Virus record (IMG/VR): IMGVR_UViG_3300032285_000220
Coordinates: 1-53,919 of that record
From: a virus
DNA: 53,919 nt
Direction: 5' to 3' (one strand)
Shown: piece by piece, positions 28,988-53,203 of the stretch
Numbering within the stretch: position 1 is the stretch's first letter
How the letters are laid out: the number at the start of each line of letters is the position of its first letter
Notes under the pieces: model-generated
Told to the model about the DNA's origin: nothing
The model's input: the letters and a program-made list of their open reading frames with translations, nothing else
Databases searched by the model: none
Position numbers and translations under genes: made by a program

Positions 28988-30322
28988 ATGTATAGTAAAT
29001 CTCATGTAGGTGGCATTGATTTAAATAGAGCTCTCAATGATTTAGTTCAAGCAGGACTAAGAGATCCTAATATACTTTTAAAGTATAGTCAAAATCCTCC
29101 ACCAGAATATGGTGCTAACGGTAAAATGTTAGTTAGCTTAGCAGCTAATGCTGTTGCTCGTGATAAACAAGCCGCTAAAACTATGCAGCCTACTCCTACT
29201 AAAACTGTTGCAGAACAAGTTAATAATAAATTAGCTGCTGCTACTCAACCGCAAGGTATTGCTGGTTTAACTAATCAAGCTCCTCCTACAGAAGCAGGTA
29301 TTAATACTCCACCAGCGGAACCAGCACCTCAATCTATGGATGGTGGCGTTGCTTCATTACCTGTTGATGAAGGTATGTATAATGAACAAAATTATGTAGG
29401 TGGTGGTATTGTTTCATTTGCTAAAGCTGGTCGTGTAGAAGCACCCGAAGATTATAATTACAAATATGGTTATGAATCTTATTATGATCAACCAACAGCA
29501 GCTTTAATGGAAGTACCTACAGTTCCTACTGATGAAGATTTAAAAACACAAACCCTTGCTCTTAAAAAAGGTTTTGTAGATCCTAATTTTTATGGCACTC
29601 AAGAAAAAACATTAGCTGATCAAACAGCACAAGATGTTGCTGAATCTAAAAAAATGGGTCAAGCAGATATTTATATGGCTTTAGCTGAAGGCTTTGGTAC
29701 TACTCCTGGTGGTTTATTAAAAGGCGCCACTGCAGCGGGAATTAAAGCACGCCCTGCTATTATGGAAATGAATAAAAACATTCTAGCTGCTAAACGTTCA
29801 AACCGTGATGCTATTAATAAACTTAATCAAGCTAAATATGCTGAATCTGTGGGTGACTTTAAAACAGCTATGGAACTTAGACAATCTGCTCAAAAAGATG
29901 CTTTTGAAGCTAAGAAAACTAATGCTACTCTTGAAACACAAATTGGAGTTGCACGTGCTAAAAATAAAGGTACTAAAGGTACTGATTTAGCAAAACTTAG
30001 ACGTGATATTGATAAACTAGCAGTAGAAGATTTTGAAAAGACTCATGGTGTAGGTTCATTTAATACTTTATTTATGAAGAATAAAGCTAAGTACTTAGAT
30101 GAATTTAATGCTCTTCGTAGACAACACGAAGACTATATACTTGGTGGTATTTCTGCTGATCCTACCAAAGAACAAACTAAGTTTAATGCTACTCAACCTT
30201 TAAGAGCTGCATCCAATAAAGGTAAAATAGTAAAAGCACCTAACGGTAAATCCTATAGACAAGTGGGCCCTAATCAATATGAACCTTTAGGTTCAGAGGA
30301 CGAAGAAGACGACAATGGCTAA
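28988..30322 (+). CDS. Virion internal/ejection-type protein
   Basis: 444 residues. N-terminal HVGGIDLNRALNDLVQAGLR, a Pro/Ala-rich linker with the GG motif VGGGIVSFAKAGRV (about 137-150), a helical central part (ADIYMALAEGFGTTPGGLLK) and a charged helical C-terminus ending in an acidic EDEEDDNG tail. It overlaps the giant gene by eight bases (ATGGCTAA), the same overlap sequence as at 1918. Probably co-packaged with the giant protein. Confidence 0.6.
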   Translation: MYSKSHVGGIDLNRALNDLVQAGLRDPNILLKYSQNPPPEYGANGKMLVSLAANAVARDKQAAKTMQPTPTKTVAEQVNNKLAAATQPQGIAGLTNQAPPTEAGINTPPAEPAPQSMDGGVASLPVDEGMYNEQNYVGGGIVSFAKAGRVEAPEDYNYKYGYESYYDQPTAALMEVPTVPTDEDLKTQTLALKKGFVDPNFYGTQEKTLADQTAQDVAESKKMGQADIYMALAEGFGTTPGGLLKGATAAGIKARPAIMEMNKNILAAKRSNRDAINKLNQAKYAESVGDFKTAMELRQSAQKDAFEAKKTNATLETQIGVARAKNKGTKGTDLAKLRRDIDKLAVEDFEKTHGVGSFNTLFMKNKAKYLDEFNALRRQHEDYILGGISADPTKEQTKFNATQPLRAASNKGKIVKAPNGKSYRQVGPNQYEPLGSEDEEDDNG

Positions 30323-33300
30323 ATATTACACTGCTGAAGAGCTAGGGCTCAATCAAAGCAGTGAAGATCAAGAACCTGTTTCAAACAAGAAATATTTTAC
30401 TGCTGAAGAAATAGGCCTTACTCCTCAAAAAGAAGAAAAGCCTAAAGAAACTAAAAAGTTTTTAACAGCTGAAGATATTGGGTTACCTCCTGAAGAAGCT
30501 CCAAAAGAAACTACTAAAGAAGAATTAACACCTCCTACAAAACCTTCTGGTTGGACTAGAAGACTTCTTGGTGATCAAGCAGTTACATTAGCACAAGGTG
30601 CTGTTGGCCTTAGACAAATGATATCTGGAGTAGAAGATTTAATTAGCTTAGGTTATATTGGTAAAGCTAAAGATACTCTTCGTGATTTTTATAAAAGTCA
30701 TGGACTTCCTGTTCCCCCATCTGATGAAGATATTAGAACATCATTAGAAAATCTTAAATCTCCTCAACGATTATATAAAACTCAAGAAGCTGATATTGCA
30801 GCTCAAGAAGCGGCTAAAGGTAAGCCTTGGTATAAAGCGGTTCCAGCTGCTACATTAGAGTATGCTAAACGTCCTGAAGCAGCTCTTGATGTTGTAGAAC
30901 AATCTCTTCCATCTATGATTGGTAGTGAAGTTGCTATTGGTCGTAATTTATTACCTAAAGTATTTCCTAAATTAGGTGCTGTAAGTCGAAGCGCTATTTC
31001 TGAAGGTTCTGCTCAAGCTACATCAATGGCAGAACAAACACGTTTACAAAATGAAGATAAAGCTTTAACTCTTAAACAAGAAGCTGCATCTATTATAAGT
31101 GGTGTATTAACAGGAACTATGGGAGCTTTTGGGGGTAAGATTGCTCAAAAGTTAGGTTTAACTGATATTGATACTGTAATTGTAGGAGCTACAAGTAAAA
31201 CAGCTACAGCTGCAGAAAAGCAGGCAGCAAAAAGTGTATTAGCTCAAACTATTAAATCATCACTTGCTGAATCAACTTTAGAAGAACTTCCTCAATCTAT
31301 GCAAGAGCAAATTGCTCAAAACTATGCTACTGGTCGTCCATGGGATGAAGGCGTTGCAGAGGCTGGTGCAAAGGGACTTATTGCAGGTTTAGTAACTGCA
31401 GCTCCAATAACGGCTTACACTCAACATAAAGAAAATCAAGATATATATCAAAAGCAACGAGATGAACTTCATAAACAAACATTAGAAGAACAACAGAAAA
31501 AAGCTAATCCTACTCGCGATGCACAAATTAAAACTATATTTAAAGATTTAGATGAACAAGCAAAACAAACATTAGCGGAAAAACAAGCTGAAGCTGATAA
31601 ATTAAAATCAGCTCAACAAGCCCAAGTAGTTAACGAAGCTCAAGATTTGGAAAGTATGCCCGCTCCAGATCAAGGTATACTCACTGATACTACGTTAACT
31701 TCGTGGGGACTCAACAAAAACAGTAAAGCATATAAACAGTTAATTGGTAAAGACGTATCTACACCAGATGGCCGAAAGCTAATGGAGGATGCATTAGATG
31801 CACATACTGGTAAACTAAACGAACAAGCTGTAAGCACCTTTACAAATATTTTAGATCAGAAAGCTGAGGCAGCAAATGCAGGACTTGACACTGGAACAAC
31901 TACAATTAGCGATGCAATATCTGGAGGACAAAAATATGGAACTCCCGGAGGAACTCAAGGACGTTTCGGACCTACAACTAATATCAGTGGAAGTGTTGCT
32001 GGACTCACTCAAACTGGAGAAGAAACAAGCGACGATACATTAGCCGCTGAAGCAGAATCTAAATTATCTACAATCCCTGGATTCAAACGATTCTCTATTA
32101 AAAAAGCTGATGGCACAATATCTGAAGGTTGGACAAGAGATAATGCTACGGATATAGATGAACAGAAAGATGAAGAAGAAGCTAATGCTAATGAAGTTTT
32201 AAAAACTGAAGAAGACCTAGCACCTGACTTTAAAGTCACTCCTCAAAAAGTTAAAGCTGAAGAAGCTCCTGAAGTACCAACACAACAAAAGATAGGTAAA
32301 CAGTTAAAATCTCTTGATCCATCTAATCCTCTTATAGAAGGCCTATTAAATAATCAAGCTTCTGATGTAGAAATGGAAGAAGCTCAAAAAGCTATTAATG
32401 ATATTATTGCAGAACGTAAAGCTAAAAAAGTAGATCTTACTAAACCTTCAGAAATTGAAAGAGAAGAGTTTAATGTTGAAGATACTGATCTTGGTACCAA
32501 TCGTGAACTACAGCCTGAAGTAGTAGCATCAACAGCTAAAGCTAAAACATTAGGTCAAGCACTTAATATTATTCAAAATGAACATAGTGATAAAACAAGC
32601 GATGCTGAAAAGTCTATTATCAAAAAACTATTAAATATACCTAATCTAGTTCATACCAAATATCAAACAAAAACACTTAACAAATTTAAAAATACTAGAA
32701 TAGGTGGTACTTTTAATAGCCTTTTAAACAAAGTAACCTTAGATACTCAGTTTGGTAATGTTAAAGCGTTAATTCATGAAGCGGTACACTCAGCTACTGT
32801 TGCCGCCTTACGTAAAGCAGTCTATACAACACATCATGTAAACAAAAAGCTTAAGCAGGCTGGCATGAGTCCAGAAGATTATACTACTTCAGAACATGTA
32901 GGTAGAACTGAAGCTGGTAAACGTATGGTTAAAATATACAATGCTGCTTTGCAGAACTGGATGCAAAACGATAAAATTCTTAAACCGTATGGACTAAAAG
33001 ATATATTTGAGTTTACATCAGAAGCGTTATCTAATCCTGAGTTCCAAAAGTTTTTAGCAGATATACCTAGTGTTGAAGGTGGTAAAGCACAAATATCATC
33101 ACTATGGACAGACTTTGTAGAAGCAGTTAAGAAGCTTCTTAACCTAGGTGATATATCTAATACACTTCTAAATGATGTATTATCAGTTGCCCCTGAATTA
33201 ATGGAAGGTCCTAAAAAAGGTATTTTTGATAGGATTAGGGATGAAGCTTCGACAGCTGAATCCTTTGTCTATGAACAAAGAACTCAAGAAGAGATGGATC

Positions 33301-36041
33301 AACTACACGCTAGAACAGGTCAAACACGTAGACCTCGTCCTCCTAAACAAACTAAATTACAAAAGTTTGCAGCAGCTCCAATACAATCTACAGGTCAAGC
33401 AATCACTAACTTTAGAAAATGGGCATTCTCATTTGACTTTGCTGTAAATAAAAAGATACTTGATGCTATGAGAAAAGCGGGTGTTAGTATGACTGAACTA
33501 GCTAAAGCTCATATTGCATTAGAAATCTCACAAGCTTTACATGTTTCTGATATGGGAGATGCTTTCTTAGAAAGAGGTAATATAAGATTTGATCCTAGAA
33601 TATTTAAATTTTTAATTACTAACTCTAGATCTAGTATGAAAAATATTAGAGATAGAATTGATAAGTTAGCTAAGCAAAAGGGTATTGATCCTATAAAAAT
33701 GTTTGAGTATGCAAGCTCTGCATTTATTGCTAAACGTTCATTAGGTTTAAATCAACATAACGATAATCTTAAAACAGTCGTATTAAATCTTTTAAATAAA
33801 GGTAAACGTGCTGAAGCTGATGCTAGATTAAAAAGAGATTTTAAACTTGTTCATATGACTGATGCTGAAATAGAAGCAGGTTTAGAAATATTAAATGAAT
33901 ACCCTGAACTTAACGATGTCTTTGATATGTGGAATGATGTTCGTGCTAAGGTATTAAACTTTGCTAAAGACATGGGTTTATATGATACTTCAGGTGTAGA
34001 GCAACTATTAGAAATTATGGACTATGTTCCATTTAATCGTGTGTTTGAAGATGCAGAAGGCGAACGTCAAGTTGGTGGTAGAAAAGAATATACAAGAGGT
34101 TTACTTGATGCTGCCAGAGATCCTAAGTTTAAAGGTAGCTATAGAGAAATCAATAATGTGTTTGATAACATGGACAATTGGGTTAAATACATTATTAAAA
34201 AAGGTATTAATAATCACGCAGCTAAAACAAAGATTGATTTTTACAAACAATATATACCTGATGATATTAAAAAGACTACAGGTCAAAAACGTGGTCCTAA
34301 AGCTAATCCTAACTCAGTGCAGATTTGGGAAAATGTAATGGTTAATGGTGAGGAGAGAAATGTTCTTAACCGTTATGACTTCCAAGGTTTTGATGCAAAA
34401 GATATGGTTGATGGGTTTACAGGATTAGAACCTGCACTTATTAATGGCTTAAGAGATTATAGTGGTTATACGCATTGGTTAAGACAAAACATTGTTCTTT
34501 ATCCTTTATTCTCTCTATCACAAGTTTGTCAGGATACTCTTTCTGCTTTAACTTTATCAGGCGTTAAATATCCTATTATGCTGCCTTTACAAGTTATTAA
34601 AGAAATAGCTTTATCTCCTGTTGGATTAAGTCAAGCACGTAAAAGACTAAAAGAAGCTGTTATTGTAGGCGCACATGACTATTCAAAAGAATATGATCGC
34701 ATAGATAAATTAGCATCTGAAGATGGTAAGAAATACAAAACATGGAGAGCTATTAAGAAAGCTGCGCTATCACCTTTTACTGCTTTAGCTATGGGTTCTG
34801 ATAACGTTATTAGACAAGCTATCTATGCACAAACTATGTTAGAAACAAACAACGAAGCTTTAGCTATGCATAGAGCTGCAGAAATTATTAACTTTAGAAG
34901 AACAGGTTCAGGTCAAATAATTAACATTATGAGACAACTAGTTCCTTTCGTAGGTGCTAACTTACAAGCATTACATGTGTCTGGTGCTACTGTATTTGGT
35001 GAAGGTATTACTCCTGATACTAGATGGAACAACTTTAAACGTTTTGTATTAAATGGTTCTCAAGTCATGATTTTAACTTTGTTGTATTGTGCAATGATGA
35101 GTGACGATGATGACTATAAAAAACTAGATCCTGCGGAAAGAGATGGTTTCTTTATACTACCTGGTGGTTATAAGATTCCAATAAGAACTGACTTTAGTGG
35201 TTTATTCTTTAAAACATTTGCTGAACATTTATATCAAAGATTTATTGAACGTAGTGAAGATTCTAAAAAAATGAATAAAGCATTACAAGCAGGGTTAATT
35301 AAAGCTTTATCTATTCCTTCTGCTATGCCTGCTGTAACTAAACCTGCAGTAGAAGCAACTTTAAATTATAACTTCTATACTAAGAGACCTCTTATTGGTC
35401 AAAGTCAAGAAGGACTTGAACCTGAACTACAATATAGCCCAAAACATACTACTCAATTAGCTATGTTATTAGGTGAAAATTCAGGAGTATCTCCTCTTGT
35501 TTATGATAATGCTATCAGAGAATTATTAGGTTCTACTTCAGCAGTAATTAACTTTTTTACAGAAAATATGATTGCTGACATGAGAGGTGAAACTTTACCA
35601 GAGAAAACATTAAGAGAAAAATTATTAATGCTTCCTAACTTTAATTCATTTTTAGTTAAACAATATGGCACTCGTGAAATGAATGATTTATATGAATTAA
35701 ATGATGAAGTTAATAAAGCTTATCAATCATATAAGAAGTTTGAAAAACTAGCTGTTGATGAAAAAGGTCAAAAAGAATTTGAAGAATATATTAAATCAAA
35801 ACAAAATCTACTTGATTTACAACCATTAATGCAGGACATTTCACAACAATTAAAAATATTAAGAGATTATGAAAACCAAGTTATCACTGATAGTGCTATT
35901 AAAGGTCCTGAAAAACGTAAGATATTAAACGATATTGAAGAGCAAAGACGTGATATGTTGAAATATGAAGTTGATAGAGAAGATCAATCTAAAACTAGAA
36001 ATATTCAACAGTTAAGAGAACAAGCAGGATTTAACGAATAA
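30315..36041 (+). CDS. Giant 1908-residue polyvalent/internal virion protein
   Basis: The largest gene here. Residues 1-60 hold three copies of a short motif (YYTAEELGL, YFTAEEIGL, FLTAEDIGL) separated by acidic, Pro-rich linkers. A zinc-metallopeptidase-like HEAVH lies at 821-825, with a possible third ligand in FEFTSEALSNPEF about 80 residues later. The C-terminal part (about 1530-1750) contains PFVGANLQALHVSGATVFGE and LPGGYKIPIRTDFSGLFFKT, then LNYNFYTKRPLIGQ and SPLVYDNAIRELLG, which I recognise as LPD38, a domain of large polyvalent proteins. Such proteins are packaged and injected, acting in the first minutes of infection. A charged coiled coil closes the protein. Confidence 0.7.
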   Translation: MAKYYTAEELGLNQSSEDQEPVSNKKYFTAEEIGLTPQKEEKPKETKKFLTAEDIGLPPEEAPKETTKEELTPPTKPSGWTRRLLGDQAVTLAQGAVGLRQMISGVEDLISLGYIGKAKDTLRDFYKSHGLPVPPSDEDIRTSLENLKSPQRLYKTQEADIAAQEAAKGKPWYKAVPAATLEYAKRPEAALDVVEQSLPSMIGSEVAIGRNLLPKVFPKLGAVSRSAISEGSAQATSMAEQTRLQNEDKALTLKQEAASIISGVLTGTMGAFGGKIAQKLGLTDIDTVIVGATSKTATAAEKQAAKSVLAQTIKSSLAESTLEELPQSMQEQIAQNYATGRPWDEGVAEAGAKGLIAGLVTAAPITAYTQHKENQDIYQKQRDELHKQTLEEQQKKANPTRDAQIKTIFKDLDEQAKQTLAEKQAEADKLKSAQQAQVVNEAQDLESMPAPDQGILTDTTLTSWGLNKNSKAYKQLIGKDVSTPDGRKLMEDALDAHTGKLNEQAVSTFTNILDQKAEAANAGLDTGTTTISDAISGGQKYGTPGGTQGRFGPTTNISGSVAGLTQTGEETSDDTLAAEAESKLSTIPGFKRFSIKKADGTISEGWTRDNATDIDEQKDEEEANANEVLKTEEDLAPDFKVTPQKVKAEEAPEVPTQQKIGKQLKSLDPSNPLIEGLLNNQASDVEMEEAQKAINDIIAERKAKKVDLTKPSEIEREEFNVEDTDLGTNRELQPEVVASTAKAKTLGQALNIIQNEHSDKTSDAEKSIIKKLLNIPNLVHTKYQTKTLNKFKNTRIGGTFNSLLNKVTLDTQFGNVKALIHEAVHSATVAALRKAVYTTHHVNKKLKQAGMSPEDYTTSEHVGRTEAGKRMVKIYNAALQNWMQNDKILKPYGLKDIFEFTSEALSNPEFQKFLADIPSVEGGKAQISSLWTDFVEAVKKLLNLGDISNTLLNDVLSVAPELMEGPKKGIFDRIRDEASTAESFVYEQRTQEEMDQLHARTGQTRRPRPPKQTKLQKFAAAPIQSTGQAITNFRKWAFSFDFAVNKKILDAMRKAGVSMTELAKAHIALEISQALHVSDMGDAFLERGNIRFDPRIFKFLITNSRSSMKNIRDRIDKLAKQKGIDPIKMFEYASSAFIAKRSLGLNQHNDNLKTVVLNLLNKGKRAEADARLKRDFKLVHMTDAEIEAGLEILNEYPELNDVFDMWNDVRAKVLNFAKDMGLYDTSGVEQLLEIMDYVPFNRVFEDAEGERQVGGRKEYTRGLLDAARDPKFKGSYREINNVFDNMDNWVKYIIKKGINNHAAKTKIDFYKQYIPDDIKKTTGQKRGPKANPNSVQIWENVMVNGEERNVLNRYDFQGFDAKDMVDGFTGLEPALINGLRDYSGYTHWLRQNIVLYPLFSLSQVCQDTLSALTLSGVKYPIMLPLQVIKEIALSPVGLSQARKRLKEAVIVGAHDYSKEYDRIDKLASEDGKKYKTWRAIKKAALSPFTALAMGSDNVIRQAIYAQTMLETNNEALAMHRAAEIINFRRTGSGQIINIMRQLVPFVGANLQALHVSGATVFGEGITPDTRWNNFKRFVLNGSQVMILTLLYCAMMSDDDDYKKLDPAERDGFFILPGGYKIPIRTDFSGLFFKTFAEHLYQRFIERSEDSKKMNKALQAGLIKALSIPSAMPAVTKPAVEATLNYNFYTKRPLIGQSQEGLEPELQYSPKHTTQLAMLLGENSGVSPLVYDNAIRELLGSTSAVINFFTENMIADMRGETLPEKTLREKLLMLPNFNSFLVKQYGTREMNDLYELNDEVNKAYQSYKKFEKLAVDEKGQKEFEEYIKSKQNLLDLQPLMQDISQQLKILRDYENQVITDSAIKGPEKRKILNDIEEQRRDMLKYEVDREDQSKTRNIQQLREQAGFNE

Positions 36042-39137: not shown

Positions 39138-39365
39138 TTACTTGTTAAGATTAACAATCAATTCTTTAATCTTTTGGTCAAGTTTTCTAGATGGTTTTGC
39201 TTTACCCGAAAACCAATCATACACCGTTTGCCTCGAAACGTTAAGCGCTTTCGCTACTTGACTAGCAGGGTATTTTAGTGATATGCAGACCGCACCTAAT
39301 AATGTCCCTGTAGTCTCTTTAGCTTTAGCATTAGCTTCGATTACTACTTGGGAGTAACCACGCAT
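39138..39365 (-). CDS. HTH transcription regulator
   Basis: 75 residues from the ATG at 39365. A helix-turn-helix lies at about 32-55 (KYPASQVAKALNVSRQTVYD), followed by WFSGKAKPSRKLDQKIKELI. This is the Xre-like build seen in small phage repressors. It sits two bases after the SSB stop and before the primase. It is the only clear DNA-binding regulator in the replication cluster and a candidate for switching the leftward promoters. Confidence 0.75.
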   Translation of the reverse strand: MRGYSQVVIEANAKAKETTGTLLGAVCISLKYPASQVAKALNVSRQTVYDWFSGKAKPSRKLDQKIKELIVNLNK

Positions 39366-48596: not shown

Positions 48597-49124
48597 TTAA
48601 TAACTGTCTGCAAAATCTACAAAATCAACTTCCATTACACCTAATGTTCTATTTTGTAATTTAGTTAAAAACTCATCAAGTTCACCACTAATAAAGTTCT
48701 GTTGAACCATGACCTCTTTTAGTTGTTTTACATAATGCTTGTCATAAGCGTATGTTCTGAGTTCCCCTGTGGGTTCTTGCTTTGTTGCTTTTTCAATATC
48801 TGCTTCAATATGTTTTTGGTTATACGCATCGGCGTTAATTTTTGCTAACGACGCAACGCCTAATAATCTTTCAAAGAAAGGATGACCGTTGGGAATGTCG
48901 CTCCAGTTTGTCCACCAATTACCATATCTAAAGTGAGGCATGGGGTATTTCTTTAACAACCATTTAGCTACAATAGTTGTAGCTGAGTGGGTTCTTGGTA
49001 TGTTGCCATTACGTAAATATTTAATAATGTTTTTGATTTGCCTATCACTAAACAAATTAAAATCCATTTCTAATTTTACTGATTTTGTGTATTGTTGTAT
49101 CTCTTGTCTTAAGTATGTTGCCAC
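48597..49124 (-). CDS. Hypothetical protein between DUF3150 and VWA genes
   Basis: 175 residues. I choose the GTG at 49124: the in-frame ATG at 49139 is part of ATGAGGAGA, which is itself the ribosome site eight bases before the GTG. The protein is charged, with DRQIKNIIKYLRNGNIPRTH, YGNWWTNWSDIPNGHPFFER and an acidic end (VMEVDFVDFADS). It lies in the MoxR/VWA module, preceded by one of the three leader hairpins. No function is known. Confidence 0.65.
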   Translation of the reverse strand: MATYLRQEIQQYTKSVKLEMDFNLFSDRQIKNIIKYLRNGNIPRTHSATTIVAKWLLKKYPMPHFRYGNWWTNWSDIPNGHPFFERLLGVASLAKINADAYNQKHIEADIEKATKQEPTGELRTYAYDKHYVKQLKEVMVQQNFISGELDEFLTKLQNRTLGVMEVDFVDFADSY

Positions 49125-49145: not shown

Positions 49146-49177
49146 GCGACAAGCGTATAACAATATACGATTGTCGC
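49146..49177 (-). promoter_or_regulatory. Leader hairpin, copy 1
   Basis: 32-base near-perfect dyad. On the minus strand the arms are GCGACAATCGTATA and TATACGCTTGTCGC around the loop TTGT, with a single mismatch. It ends 21 bases before the GTG start at 49124 and begins eight bases after the VWA gene stop. Same length, loop size and arms as at 51420 and 53106. Confidence 0.75.
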
Positions 49178-49184
49178 TTGGTTA

Positions 49185-50342
49185 TTAATCAATATGAATT
49201 GTCTTACCATGTGGTGATGTGATATGTTTGGTTGTGATAGCCCATAAGGTAGGATAATCCCAATTACCACCAAAGTCATTCTCTACATAACCATCTGTCA
49301 ATATAATGATAGCTTCGGGTTGAATGCGTTTATCTTTGATATAATCATTGACGCACCCAACTGTCGTGCCACCACCCCCTGCAGGTTTTGTTGTTTGAAC
49401 CAATGAGTGATAATCACCTTGATTGTATGTCTCATGTCCTGCAACACAGGTATCCCAATACAACAACTCTATACTTGATGGGGATACATCATCACATATA
49501 GCTACAACTTCTGTTAAGAACTCGTTGAGTTCCTTGTCACCAATAGAACCTGATGTGTCTATACCTACAACAATCTGTCCTATTGATTCACCAATCATGC
49601 TAGGCATATAGATGTCATGCCCAATGAAACGCTTGTGTGGTCGTTTCCATGATGTCTTATCTTTGTTCTTACATGTAGCCGTTACAAAGTCACGCAACTG
49701 CTCACGCCAATTAACCTTAGGTTCAAGTATTTCGTTGACACTTCGGTTCTTATTACCTTGCATCTTACCTCGTATGATTTCACCTTGTCGTAAGGCTTGG
49801 TCTATCTGCTTGGCTACTTCTTTCTTTTCCTCGTCAGATAAACTATCAGCACCTTCCCAATCATGTGAGTCATGTCCTTCACCTTGACCTTGACCACCAT
49901 TCTTTTCAGCATCTTTCATAATCTCATCAAAGATTTGTTTAGTAGTCATACCTTTATACTTCAAGTCAAAGAGAGCCGAGTCGGGTCGCTTGGTAACTTC
50001 ACCTTGTTCATCAGCTTCATGTATCGCATAGTTCACAACATAGTCAGCCGCCATGTTAGCTACCATAGGATTAATCTTCCATAGTTTCTTCCATAGGTTC
50101 ATATGTTGATATGCCTTGTGTAATGCCTCATGCAACACGACAAAGTTTAACTCCTTATCATCTAGTGTTTTGATGAAGTCTGTATTGTAGATAACATCAC
50201 GACCATTGGTGCAAGCCGTAGGTATATCCTCGTTAAACATCACCTTGCCCACCGATAACACACCTGCAAACATACAGAATTGTTTGCTACGCATTATCGC
50301 TATGTGGGACTTCGTGACTCTTTGTTCACTTGTTAGTGCCAT
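49185..50342 (-). CDS. VWA-domain protein with HExxH-like N-domain (CobT-like)
   Basis: 385 residues. The N-terminal domain has VVLHEALHKAYQH with His71-Glu72 and His75, as in the DUF2201 (VWA-like peptidase-related) family. A Gly/Gln-acid linker (about 148-160, GGQGQGEGHDSHD) leads to a VWA domain with the metal site IDTSGS (Asp262, Ser264, Ser266), plus GGGGTT and LTDGY later. With the MoxR ATPase upstream it forms a chelatase-like or RavA/ViaA-like pair. GAGGAT lies before the ATG, after an eight-base gap from the ATPase. Confidence 0.85.
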   Translation of the reverse strand: MALTSEQRVTKSHIAIMRSKQFCMFAGVLSVGKVMFNEDIPTACTNGRDVIYNTDFIKTLDDKELNFVVLHEALHKAYQHMNLWKKLWKINPMVANMAADYVVNYAIHEADEQGEVTKRPDSALFDLKYKGMTTKQIFDEIMKDAEKNGGQGQGEGHDSHDWEGADSLSDEEKKEVAKQIDQALRQGEIIRGKMQGNKNRSVNEILEPKVNWREQLRDFVTATCKNKDKTSWKRPHKRFIGHDIYMPSMIGESIGQIVVGIDTSGSIGDKELNEFLTEVVAICDDVSPSSIELLYWDTCVAGHETYNQGDYHSLVQTTKPAGGGGTTVGCVNDYIKDKRIQPEAIIILTDGYVENDFGGNWDYPTLWAITTKHITSPHGKTIHID

Positions 50343-50350
50343 ATATCCTC

Positions 50351-51397
50351 CTAGAAGTATTGGTTATTCTTAACTGCCCAATCAATGAATGACTTGTTCT
50401 GAGCCGCGACTGCCTTACGAGATGATGCCATGATGTTTACTGCAAACAAGGCTTGTATCTCCATAGGTAATCGTTGTAAGTATGTAAGCCACGCATCCAT
50501 ATGTTGCTCTGTGATTGTCATTAGTTCTCGCATGACTAGAATTACACGAGCCGCAGGGTCGCTTGGTAAGTTAGCTTTCTCAGGTTCTTTGTAAATACTT
50601 TCTTTAGTCGGTAAGCCATCAGCTAGACTAAAGTATGCTGACATATCACGAGCCGCTGACTCACCCAATGTGCCTGTGAGTGCAACCATAGTGGTATCTT
50701 CACCTAGTGTTGTTCTGTTCTTAACGATATGTGATGCCTTCTCTAATGAACGAGGGGATACGAAAGCCTCTTGTTGTTTGCGTGGATTGTAGATATACAT
50801 GTTCTCTTTCTGTGCTTCATCTGTATAACACGCTAGTGCATGAGGGAATTGTTTAACCCATGCTACAACCTCTGGTGCTATGTTGTTATCAATAGCCCAA
50901 CTAATCCATTCATCATCATTCGGATTACGCACAATGACTGCCGTCAATCTATTCTTGGCATGTGCTTTCATGGTATCGCCAACACCATCTGTTGTTAGAT
51001 TACCTGTTGAATACACGATAGAGTCGGGGTGAAACTTAACTGCACCTAATCGTCTCTCTAACATGACAGGCAATAACATATTCTTAACAGGCTCACTAGC
51101 TTTAGTTATCTCGTCTAGCATAATGATGACAGGCTTGTTATCATGGATAGCAAAGCGTTCATTCGGATAGAATGTTGTTGTCTTGCTCTCATGGTTCATA
51201 GCAGGCATAGCTAAGTCGCCTAAGTCTAAGTCTGCACAATCTATATACACAGGTGTGTGTTCTGGAAATCGTTTAGCTAACGACTTCAATATAGATGATT
51301 TACCAATGCCAGGTTGACCTTTGAGGTGAACCGTAACATCTTTACCTACTGTTGCAATTAATTCCTCTGCTTGTTTCAAACTTATTTCTTGTTGCAT
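50351..51397 (-). CDS. MoxR-family AAA+ ATPase (CobS-like)
   Basis: 348 residues. Walker A KGQPGIGKSS (GQPGIGKS at 27-34), Walker B IIMLDEITKA (Asp95, Glu96), sensor-like VYSTGNLTTDGVGDT and an arginine-finger region following (AKNRLTAVIV). MoxR ATPases act with VWA proteins to remodel or load metal into a target protein complex. The neighbouring VWA and DUF3150 genes complete the set. An AGGAGAGAG site precedes the ATG; one of the three leader hairpins lies 22 bases upstream. Confidence 0.85.
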   Translation of the reverse strand: MQQEISLKQAEELIATVGKDVTVHLKGQPGIGKSSILKSLAKRFPEHTPVYIDCADLDLGDLAMPAMNHESKTTTFYPNERFAIHDNKPVIIMLDEITKASEPVKNMLLPVMLERRLGAVKFHPDSIVYSTGNLTTDGVGDTMKAHAKNRLTAVIVRNPNDDEWISWAIDNNIAPEVVAWVKQFPHALACYTDEAQKENMYIYNPRKQQEAFVSPRSLEKASHIVKNRTTLGEDTTMVALTGTLGESAARDMSAYFSLADGLPTKESIYKEPEKANLPSDPAARVILVMRELMTITEQHMDAWLTYLQRLPMEIQALFAVNIMASSRKAVAAQNKSFIDWAVKNNQYF

Positions 51398-51419
51398 GAT
51401 ACTCTCTCCTTAATGTTAA

Positions 51420-51451
51420 GCGACATTGGTATATTTCTATACACTTGTCGC
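51420..51451 (-). promoter_or_regulatory. Leader hairpin, copy 2
   Basis: On the minus strand GCGACAAGTGTATA and TATACCAATGTCGC around GAAA. The outer six and inner five base pairs are conserved, with a 3x3 internal loop; the loop is a GNRA-type tetraloop. The TAG stop of the upstream 290-residue gene is inside the hairpin, so the element overlaps coding sequence. It ends 22 bases before the MoxR ATG. Confidence 0.75.
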
Positions 51452-52309
51452 AGGTTGAACTTCTACTAAAACTTGTGGGTTCTCTAACTTAATATTTTTA
51501 TCTAACCATCTTTTAATCATACCTATGTTGCAACGATAGCTATATCTACTATTACCTGTTGCACTAGCCCCAAGCCATATACTGCGTGAGCATTGTCTTA
51601 ACGCATAGTAATAGGATAGATATGTTTTATCTTCATCGGCAAATAAGTTAAGCATGCCTTCAATACCTTTAAATTGAGTTAATTCATTTACTTGTTTACT
51701 CAATGCTTCATCATGCTCTACACCTTCGTTGTTACTTAACTTCAACATGGTGTCTGCATACTTTAAGAACTTCTTATATGGTAGTCGCAACTCACGCATC
51801 TGCCTTGCATCAAACCTATACTTCACAGGTTTCTCAAACTGCTCGGGATACATTGGCTTGTTGTCATATGTTATGGCATACCAATCCCTTGCATTGATGT
51901 GATAGTCGTTTCTATCTAAACCAACAATACATTCAATCTGATTGTTCTTAACTAATGGACTTCGTGTAAATGGTGCAGGCACATATTTCTTATGGTCAAA
52001 CTCGTATATATACACACCACCTATATAGCTTAAAAAGTATTGCGTTGACCTTGATGGATAAGCACCTAGTGTTATCTCTTTGTGTGTAGGATAAAACCTT
52101 ACCAAGTCTGTGTCATAATAACCTGCGACATATACTTCAATGCCGTCTTGTATTTCTTGACGCAACCATTTCTCTTTCTCATATCTATCACCTAATCTAC
52201 GCACAGATTGGTTCTCACCTCTTACTGCTGTTCTGCTTTCAAATATATCTTTAGCATGTTTATAATCACTAATGCGTGGCATGTTATAAACATTAATATG
52301 AAATCCCAT
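51437..52309 (-). CDS. Hypothetical protein upstream of MoxR
   Basis: 290 residues. Blocks such as RRLGDRYEKEKWLRQEIQDG, YYDTDLVRFYPTHKEITLGA, YKKFLKYADTMLKLSNNEGV and YALRQCSRSIWLGASATGNS are similar to conserved proteins I have seen beside MoxR/VWA genes in aquatic phages, function unknown. GGGAGAATAAC precedes the ATG. The last codons and stop lie within leader hairpin copy 2. It may be a fourth partner of the module. Confidence 0.65.
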   Translation of the reverse strand: MGFHINVYNMPRISDYKHAKDIFESRTAVRGENQSVRRLGDRYEKEKWLRQEIQDGIEVYVAGYYDTDLVRFYPTHKEITLGAYPSRSTQYFLSYIGGVYIYEFDHKKYVPAPFTRSPLVKNNQIECIVGLDRNDYHINARDWYAITYDNKPMYPEQFEKPVKYRFDARQMRELRLPYKKFLKYADTMLKLSNNEGVEHDEALSKQVNELTQFKGIEGMLNLFADEDKTYLSYYYALRQCSRSIWLGASATGNSRYSYRCNIGMIKRWLDKNIKLENPQVLVEVQPATSV

Positions 52310-52310
52310 G

Positions 52311-52652
52311 TTATTCTCCCTCTTTCATGTCATAACCTCTGTTCATCCAACTTACAAACTTCATGTTCTCAAGCCAATCTTGTAGGCTAGGTATCCACCC
52401 ACCACAATCCTCTTTAACATGTTGTTCACCTATTAATCGTGTTGGAACTTCACGACCATCACTATTCACAATGAATAATCCGAATTGTCTTTCACATTCA
52501 AAGATACCTTGTGCATGATGTCGTATGGCTCTGTGTCTTGCGTCAGCAAAACATTCTTTGGTTGCATCAAACCAATCGTGTATTGGTTGATAGTCAGCTT
52601 CAACACCACCCCATTTCTTTACAGATGTTTTAGAATGATAATGTGTATTCAT
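52311..52652 (-). CDS. DUF6915-type protein
   Basis: 113 residues. The pattern HYHSKTSVKKWGGVEADYQP, IHDWFDATKECFADARHRAI, RHHAQGIFECERQFG and EQHVKEDCGGWIPSLQDWL is one I recognise as DUF6915, with many conserved His, Asp and Glu that could bind metal. Function unknown. TAATG overlap couples it to the gene before, one base separates it from the gene after. Confidence 0.75.
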   Translation of the reverse strand: MNTHYHSKTSVKKWGGVEADYQPIHDWFDATKECFADARHRAIRHHAQGIFECERQFGLFIVNSDGREVPTRLIGEQHVKEDCGGWIPSLQDWLENMKFVSWMNRGYDMKEGE

Positions 52653-53080
52653 TATTCTTCCTCCTCATCATTCAAATCATATTCATAATCTTCAGTCGTT
52701 CTGTGGTTGATACCCACATTTAACTTAATACTTGGAGGGGTATCTCTAAAGTCAATCGTTAGATTACCTTGACCTCCGTCATTGTTATACCAATCAAGCC
52801 CTGTGTTATCTAATGCACGACTGCATAAATCTTCTAATACATCTGCTAGCTTGGTTGGTTTTGACTCTGCTTGTTGACCACCATAAGTTAGTGATGTCCA
52901 CGCAATCATATCGTCTGGTATTTCAATATAATTGCCATCATTACCAGAGATATAAACACCATCAACTTGTCCATCATCACCACCCCCTTGAAACTCTACA
53001 ACTACTAGCTTTGCACCTAGCAGATTTAACTGCGTCAGTAGCGTTGTTTTTTCTTGCTCGTTTGCAAATATATTTTTCAC
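52652..53080 (-). CDS. DUF6878-type protein, first gene of the promoter-proximal operon
   Basis: 142 residues from the GTG at 53080. The in-frame ATG at 53095 belongs to ATGAGGAGA, which acts as the ribosome site, as at 49139. The blocks VVVEFQGGGDDGQVDGVYIS, LCSRALDNTGLDWYNNDGGQ and TIDFRDTPPSIKLNVGINHR fit the DUF6878 pattern, followed by a strongly acidic C-terminus (DYEYDLNDEEEE). Function unknown; the acidic tail would suit a protein-binding or DNA-mimic role, which is speculation. Confidence 0.7.
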   Translation of the reverse strand: MKNIFANEQEKTTLLTQLNLLGAKLVVVEFQGGGDDGQVDGVYISGNDGNYIEIPDDMIAWTSLTYGGQQAESKPTKLADVLEDLCSRALDNTGLDWYNNDGGQGNLTIDFRDTPPSIKLNVGINHRTTEDYEYDLNDEEEE

Positions 53081-53105
53081 GATAGTTCTCCTCATTAAAA
53101 AATAA

Positions 53106-53137
53106 ACGACAAGAGTATAAAGTTATACGATTGTCGC
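53106..53137 (-). promoter_or_regulatory. Leader hairpin, copy 3
   Basis: On the minus strand GCGACAATCGTATA and TATACTCTTGTCGT around ACTT. The outermost pair is G-T, which pairs as G-U in RNA but breaks the DNA symmetry. It lies about 31-62 bases into the predicted transcript from the 53175-53203 promoter and ends 25 bases before the GTG start. Confidence 0.75.
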
Positions 53138-53174
53138 TTGGTTGATAAAACACTTCTTCATTTCCTACAAACAT

Positions 53175-53203
53175 ATTATAGCATGATTACTTTACATTGT
53201 CAA
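53175..53203 (-). promoter_or_regulatory. Perfect consensus sigma70 promoter
   Basis: Minus strand: TTGACA (53203-53198), 17-base spacer, TATAAT (53180-53175), with TGC in the extended -10 position. Start predicted near 53168, giving a leader of about 88 bases. It should be among the strongest promoters here and would drive the DUF6878-DUF6915-MoxR-VWA-DUF3150 genes and probably further. Confidence 0.88.

Follow-up and report, generated by a model that had tools for sequence, protein, structure and literature searches.

The locus described here raises the question of what three inverted repeats of identical geometry, each lying a short distance ahead of a start codon, do in the genome of an uncultured virus, whether they act as RNA or as DNA, and which protein, if any, recognizes them. 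The window, meaning the whole stretch of DNA analyzed, comprises 53,919 nucleotides (IMG/VR record IMGVR_UViG_3300032285_000220) and is an uncultured virus record that ends ~840 bases past the start of the DUF6878 gene. Based on simple gene calls, its relevant features are as follows.

48597..49124, minus strand: gene for fam5, a 175-aa protein, after copy 1; a dyad stands in front of it in many relatives
49146..49177, minus strand: dyad copy 1, GCGACA-AT-CGTATA-TTGT-TATACG-CT-TGTCGC, 21 nt before the GTG at 49124 of fam5 (175 aa)
49180..49183, minus strand: AACC 5' flank of copy 1 (directional motif)
49185..50342, minus strand: gene for a DUF2201 metallopeptidase-like/VWA protein, without a dyad of its own
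50351..51397, minus strand: gene for an AAA/MoxR-like ATPase (fam2; Pfam AAA_5, phrog_1297; N4 gp24-like)
51420..51451, minus strand: dyad copy 2, GCGACA-AG-TGTATA-GAAA-TATACC-AA-TGTCGC, 22 nt before the ATG at 51397 of the AAA ATPase gene (fam2)
51453..51456, minus strand: AACC 5' flank of copy 2
52652..53080, minus strand: gene for a DUF6878 protein (fam16), first gene after the promoter, with copy 3 in front
53106..53137, minus strand: dyad copy 3, GCGACA-AT-CGTATA-ACTT-TATACT-CT-TGTCGT, 25 nt before the GTG at 53080 (DUF6878, fam16)
53140..53143, minus strand: AACC 5' flank of copy 3
53175..53203, minus strand: predicted sigma-70 promoter, TTGACA-17-TATAAT, 12/12 matches, TG before the -10

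Dyads and genes of the window

The sequences, coordinates, and geometry that the original prediction gave for the three dyads, along with their distance of 21-25 bases to minus-strand start codons, were all confirmed, and each dyad is 32 bases long with a single geometry of 6+2/3+5/6+4 (outer arm, mismatch-prone linker, inner arm, spacer). The dyads had also been placed before the genes of a MoxR/VWA module, and this is correct for the AAA/MoxR-like gene but not for the VWA (DUF2201) gene, which has no dyad of its own; they precede the AAA gene, the gene that follows the VWA gene (fam5), and the first gene after the promoter (DUF6878). Copy 2 shares bases with the stop codon of the gene upstream of it, and copy 3 corresponds to approximately +31 to +62 of the predicted transcript, ~30 nt downstream of its predicted start. 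All three copies share the AACC 5' flank, a feature missed in the earlier reading.

The pattern GCGACA-N16..20-TGTCGC occurs twice in the window versus 0 times in 100 dinucleotide shuffles, and tolerating one mismatch adds copy 3 and one unrelated match. The exact dyad geometry pattern was found in 18 further IMG/VR stretches, several of them with 2-4 copies, and the window had no gathering-level match in Rfam. An intrinsic terminator was considered and rejected, in agreement with the earlier reading, as the window dyads have no T run and are absent from the list of terminator-like sites; T-rich 3' flanks are found at the dyads of some relatives.

Close DNA relatives of the early part of the window were not found in the phage collection, nor were relatives of the DUF6878 protein, and a search for AAA relatives among bacterial genomes returned one weak partial match only. 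The fam5 protein (48597-49124) is far more variable than most of its neighbors, with 39-44% identity in several otherwise similar genome pairs, and may be another candidate for a fast-evolving early gene. Elsewhere in the window, positions 30315-36041 encode a protein of 1908 aa that contains an LPD38 domain and partially matches phrog_30335.

Conservation of the dyad in relatives

To define the relatives, 62 AAA-protein homologs from viral contigs were picked by protein homology alone, and these yielded 47 distinct leaders. A dyad of 9-13 Watson-Crick pairs is present in at least 43 of the 47, and where an AAA leader has a dyad, 16-36 nt, mostly 19-23, separate its 3' end from the start codon. 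L050, L052, L056, and L059 are without a clear dyad. For L065 and L076, the automatically chosen best palindrome differs from the dyad read directly in the leader. The site of copy 2 is kept at its orthologous position in front of fam2, and dyads are retained at orthologous positions across 62-98% AAA identity. Between some phage lineages the stem sequence is nearly all different and the arms are still matched. In an alignment of 40 sequences (A1), both-side changes occur at all 12 pairs, a count that is illustrative because these sequences were chosen by pairing, whereas the 47 leaders were not. A covariance-model search, the kind of check that had been proposed, detected sites in 20 of 23 whole records, and these matches cluster in the early region. 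The dyad sites share descent, and counts of them are not independent. The earlier view of a real, conserved, start-associated repeat that is probably bound by a phage regulator is supported.

Across relatives, the dyads are two-fold symmetric, ~28-34 bp long, and variable in the loop. Their sequence is a property of the genome rather than of the gene, with a core-position similarity of 0.91 between genes within a genome versus 0.54 for the same gene between genomes. Many types exist, examples being GCGACA/GTATA (this window), GTGACA/GTTATA, GTCACA/TCATA, CGAACA/CTTACT, and GTTCYG/GCACT. Two types are found within one genome in G002, G009, and L045, and the type match is therefore not absolute. 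The AACC motif is on the 5' side of 80/107 early-gene sites and mirrored on the 3' side of 0/107, and it is present at 0/12 fam20 sites (see below for this family).

RNA element or DNA site

Under selection for RNA pairing, one-arm changes that leave a G-U pair are expected to be commoner than the strand-reversed A-C on the coding strand. One-arm deviations at 147 sites comprised 40 G-U versus 56 A-C, whereas a control hairpin from the same phages, located at the 5' end of fam20 transcripts, gave 18 G-U versus 1 A-C (Fisher p=1.9e-5 for the difference in ratio). Around fam20, moreover, the dyad is not limited to leaders: in G004, G005, and L072 it precedes the predicted -35 region, and in G007 and G022 it falls within the fam20 reading frame. 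The lack of a G-U preference, together with dyads located upstream of a -35 box or within coding sequence, favors a DNA operator. The G-T outer pair of copy 3 and the GNRA loop of copy 2 had been taken as signs of RNA, and this argument is not sustained by the strand counts, the unconserved loops, or the sites outside leaders; the dimer-bound DNA operator that the original prediction had left open fits better.

Several observations would nonetheless fit an RNA element, a transcribed hairpin just upstream of the ribosome footprint that would set the translation or stability of each early gene, either by binding a phage protein (perhaps fam20) or by being processed. The dyads fold stably, stand at a near-fixed distance from start codons, carry AACC on the coding strand only, have frequent mismatches between the outer and inner stems, and, in the pairing-selected set, show both-arm changes at all pairs. 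Some coupling between the arms does remain, with 26 both-arm changes at one position (17 identical) versus 9 expected under independence, an excess that RNA pairing would also produce. We nevertheless regard an RNA element as unlikely, given the G-U to A-C ratio compared with that of the true RNA hairpin, the positions upstream of -35 boxes or in coding sequence, and a stem sequence that is uniform within each genome beyond what pairing alone requires.

fam20 as the candidate partner of the dyads

The HTH protein encoded at 39138-39365, which had been put forward as the binder, was rejected as a type-specific one since it is nearly invariant across dyad types, with 98-100% identity between genomes of differing type. 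Protein distance was compared with dyad type for 47 protein families, with core-gene identity controlled and the sites of fam20 itself left out. The family designated fam20 ranks first of the 47 (partial Mantel 0.47, permutation p=0.0005), and among the pairs listed, a fam20 identity of at least 58% goes with a dyad similarity of at least 0.80 and an identity of at most 42% with a similarity of at most 0.65. This immediate-early family, ~200-250 aa in complete members and with a strong predicted promoter of its own, is absent from the window, its position being just beyond the end of this truncated record.

G002 and G016 are near-isogenic, with core proteins 98% identical, and 30 of their 32 shared families are at 84-100% identity, the others being fam16 (67%) and fam20 (43%). 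The two genomes differ in both inner arms at most of the sites they share. The AAA and fam12 sites differ mainly in that each inner arm has been replaced (TGCGTA vs GTATCA), their flanks being largely conserved; the type differs at the fam50 and fam20 sites as well, with flanks less similar, and the fam5 site is identical in both genomes. Similarly, G009 and G011 differ in dyad type, with fam20 at 25% and fam5 at 44% identity and most early genes at 80-100%. For 20/20 genomes with fam20, the sequence that best fits the dyad type of that genome is found between -126 and +119 relative to the fam20 start, mostly in the 5' UTR; 18 of these sites have no more than 3 mismatches, and those of G006 and L009 have 5. 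In G006, G005, and L063, some control windows score almost as high as the fam20 site.

These patterns bear on whether the dyads could be passive palindromic repeats, spread between intergenic regions by recombination and lacking any cognate protein. Copies are alike within a genome and mosaic genomes occur, as such spread would predict, but the retention of dyads at orthologous positions over 62-98% AAA identity, the in-situ exchange of inner arms before the AAA and fam12 genes, and the association with fam20 make this explanation very improbable.

It is the association with dyad type, rather than the fold, that points to DNA binding by fam20. Searches of Pfam and PHROG gave no match of note for the family and the phage collection gave none, its predicted structure is all-helical (pLDDT 84), and a fold search gave no significant structural match and recognized no DNA-binding fold. 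A resemblance to the KaiA C-terminal helical bundle was set aside, the best score (VIA Z 6.7) falling in the uninformative range of the tool, where other folds are possible. Between G002 and G016, identity falls to just 15% in the helix at residues 88-107, but region-wise correlations over all types did not single out this helix as a specificity region.

Several further features were noticed among the relatives. Most fam20 transcripts are predicted to open with a 5'-terminal RNA hairpin of 8-12 bp, often abutting the dyad (for example, L001 upstream of 2755, G010, and G011), and the tandem hairpins at the fam20 5' end recall put-like or stabilizing leaders. A G-rich tract such as GGGGTATGGGGTACGGGTAGG stands ahead of the -35 box in most of the fam20 promoters listed (e.g., L001 and G011). 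A separate long inverted repeat, AGATTAGAACC...GGTCTAATCT, is found ~30 nt before fam32 genes (L079:2525, L007:9107, L036:2813, and L054:3369).

A proposed model for early shut-off

Based on these sequence comparisons, our favored reading, to which we assign a probability of roughly 60%, is that the dyads are DNA operators for one sequence-specific phage protein, most likely fam20, that shuts early genes off. The observations behind the operator reading are the conservation and geometry of the dyads, their two-arm change between types and uniformity within genomes, the lack of a G-U preference, the association with fam20, and the sites near fam20 genes; from these we infer binding, dimerization, repression, and a block to elongation by fam20. 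The covariation of the dyads with the fast-changing fam20 suggests a lock-and-key switch that turns early genes off. Each half-site would consist of an outer (GCGACA) and an inner (GTATA) block 2-3 bp apart, with two half-sites facing one another across ~4 bp and a binder that is probably dimeric. Made first from an immediate-early gene with a strong promoter, fam20 would accumulate and then bind operators both at the starts of early units and before individual early genes (AAA, fam5, DUF6878, and others), where it would block RNA polymerase and turn the early genes off in a stoperator-like manner; its own synthesis would be held in check by a site close to the fam20 promoter, usually a weaker one.

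A plain DNA operator does not account for the near-constant distance to the start codon (mostly 18-25 nt) or for the strand-specific AACC. The operator sits just outside the ribosome footprint, where its transcribed palindrome would be expected to leave the Shine-Dalgarno sequence accessible, and keeping the palindrome outside this footprint may be the reason for the near-fixed distance.

The association between fam20 and dyad type would apply equally if fam20 bound these DNA sites for activation, antitermination, or replication/segregation (centromere-like). A promoter whose -10 looks weak has the site upstream of its -35 in G005 and L072, but most sites stand before early-gene starts and leave too little space for a promoter ahead of the gene, and we think a role of this kind rather improbable.

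If repression by fam20 is correct, it would define a regulator family for which no relatives are detected and an operator built as a two-block dyad that occurs in many natural specificity types; near-identical genomes would allow changes in the regulator to be compared directly with changes in the site. Phage type would then be predictable from sequence, the types would offer ready-made orthogonal operator-regulator pairs, and superinfection immunity outside lysogeny would become open to test. No match to the tyrosine integrase family PF00589 was found in 24 records, which may be incomplete (controls 14/14). More tentatively, and with the odds against it, the system may be a stoperator-like early shut-off whose many distinct specificity types are kept by diversifying selection in phages without a detectable tyrosine integrase, where a resident infection could silence the early genes of an incomer of the same type.

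Comparison with known phage systems

Repression of transcription by a phage protein has a precedent in a lytic phage, as T7 Gp5.7 is a 7-kDa winged-HTH-like protein that represses initiation at host-RNAP-dependent promoters, and fam20 is likewise proposed to repress transcription. Unlike Gp5.7, fam20 has no winged-HTH-like match, and dispersed operators are not mentioned in the summary of the work on Gp5.7 (PMC5569994).

Anatomically, the closest analogy is the ESAS repeats of Cluster K mycobacteriophages, which are imperfect inverted repeats upstream of non-structural gene starts with a subcluster-specific consensus, having 17-bp arms and spacers of mostly 4-13 bp and lying beside a 13-bp SAS in the RBS (PMC3203893). 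The dyads resemble them in being inverted repeats just upstream of starts with a genome-specific consensus. They differ in that the window has no SAS-like enrichment, the 13-bp SAS GGGATAGGAGCCC that sits at the RBS in Cluster K having one 3-mismatch match in the window versus 4.3 expected by chance.

Functionally, the nearest analogy is the stoperators of Cluster A mycobacteriophages, for which the L5 and TipsytheTRex repressors provide examples. The Cluster A sites are asymmetric and 13 bp long, and the repressor that binds them is a monomer carrying HTH and Stoperator domains, which halts elongation at the site; these phages are temperate, with an integrase or parABS, and maintain lysogeny (PMC9283540, PMC6550527). 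The sites described here are instead symmetric dyads of ~28-34 bp in the early region, and fam20 is a helical protein without detected relatives. The two systems are nevertheless alike in placing many sites in short intergenic regions, some of them close to the gene for the regulator, and in having a motif that is specific to the genome and varies with the repressor, here a putative one. A directional feature may be a further parallel, in that stoperators keep one orientation relative to transcription and the dyads, themselves orientation-free, have the AACC 5' flank.
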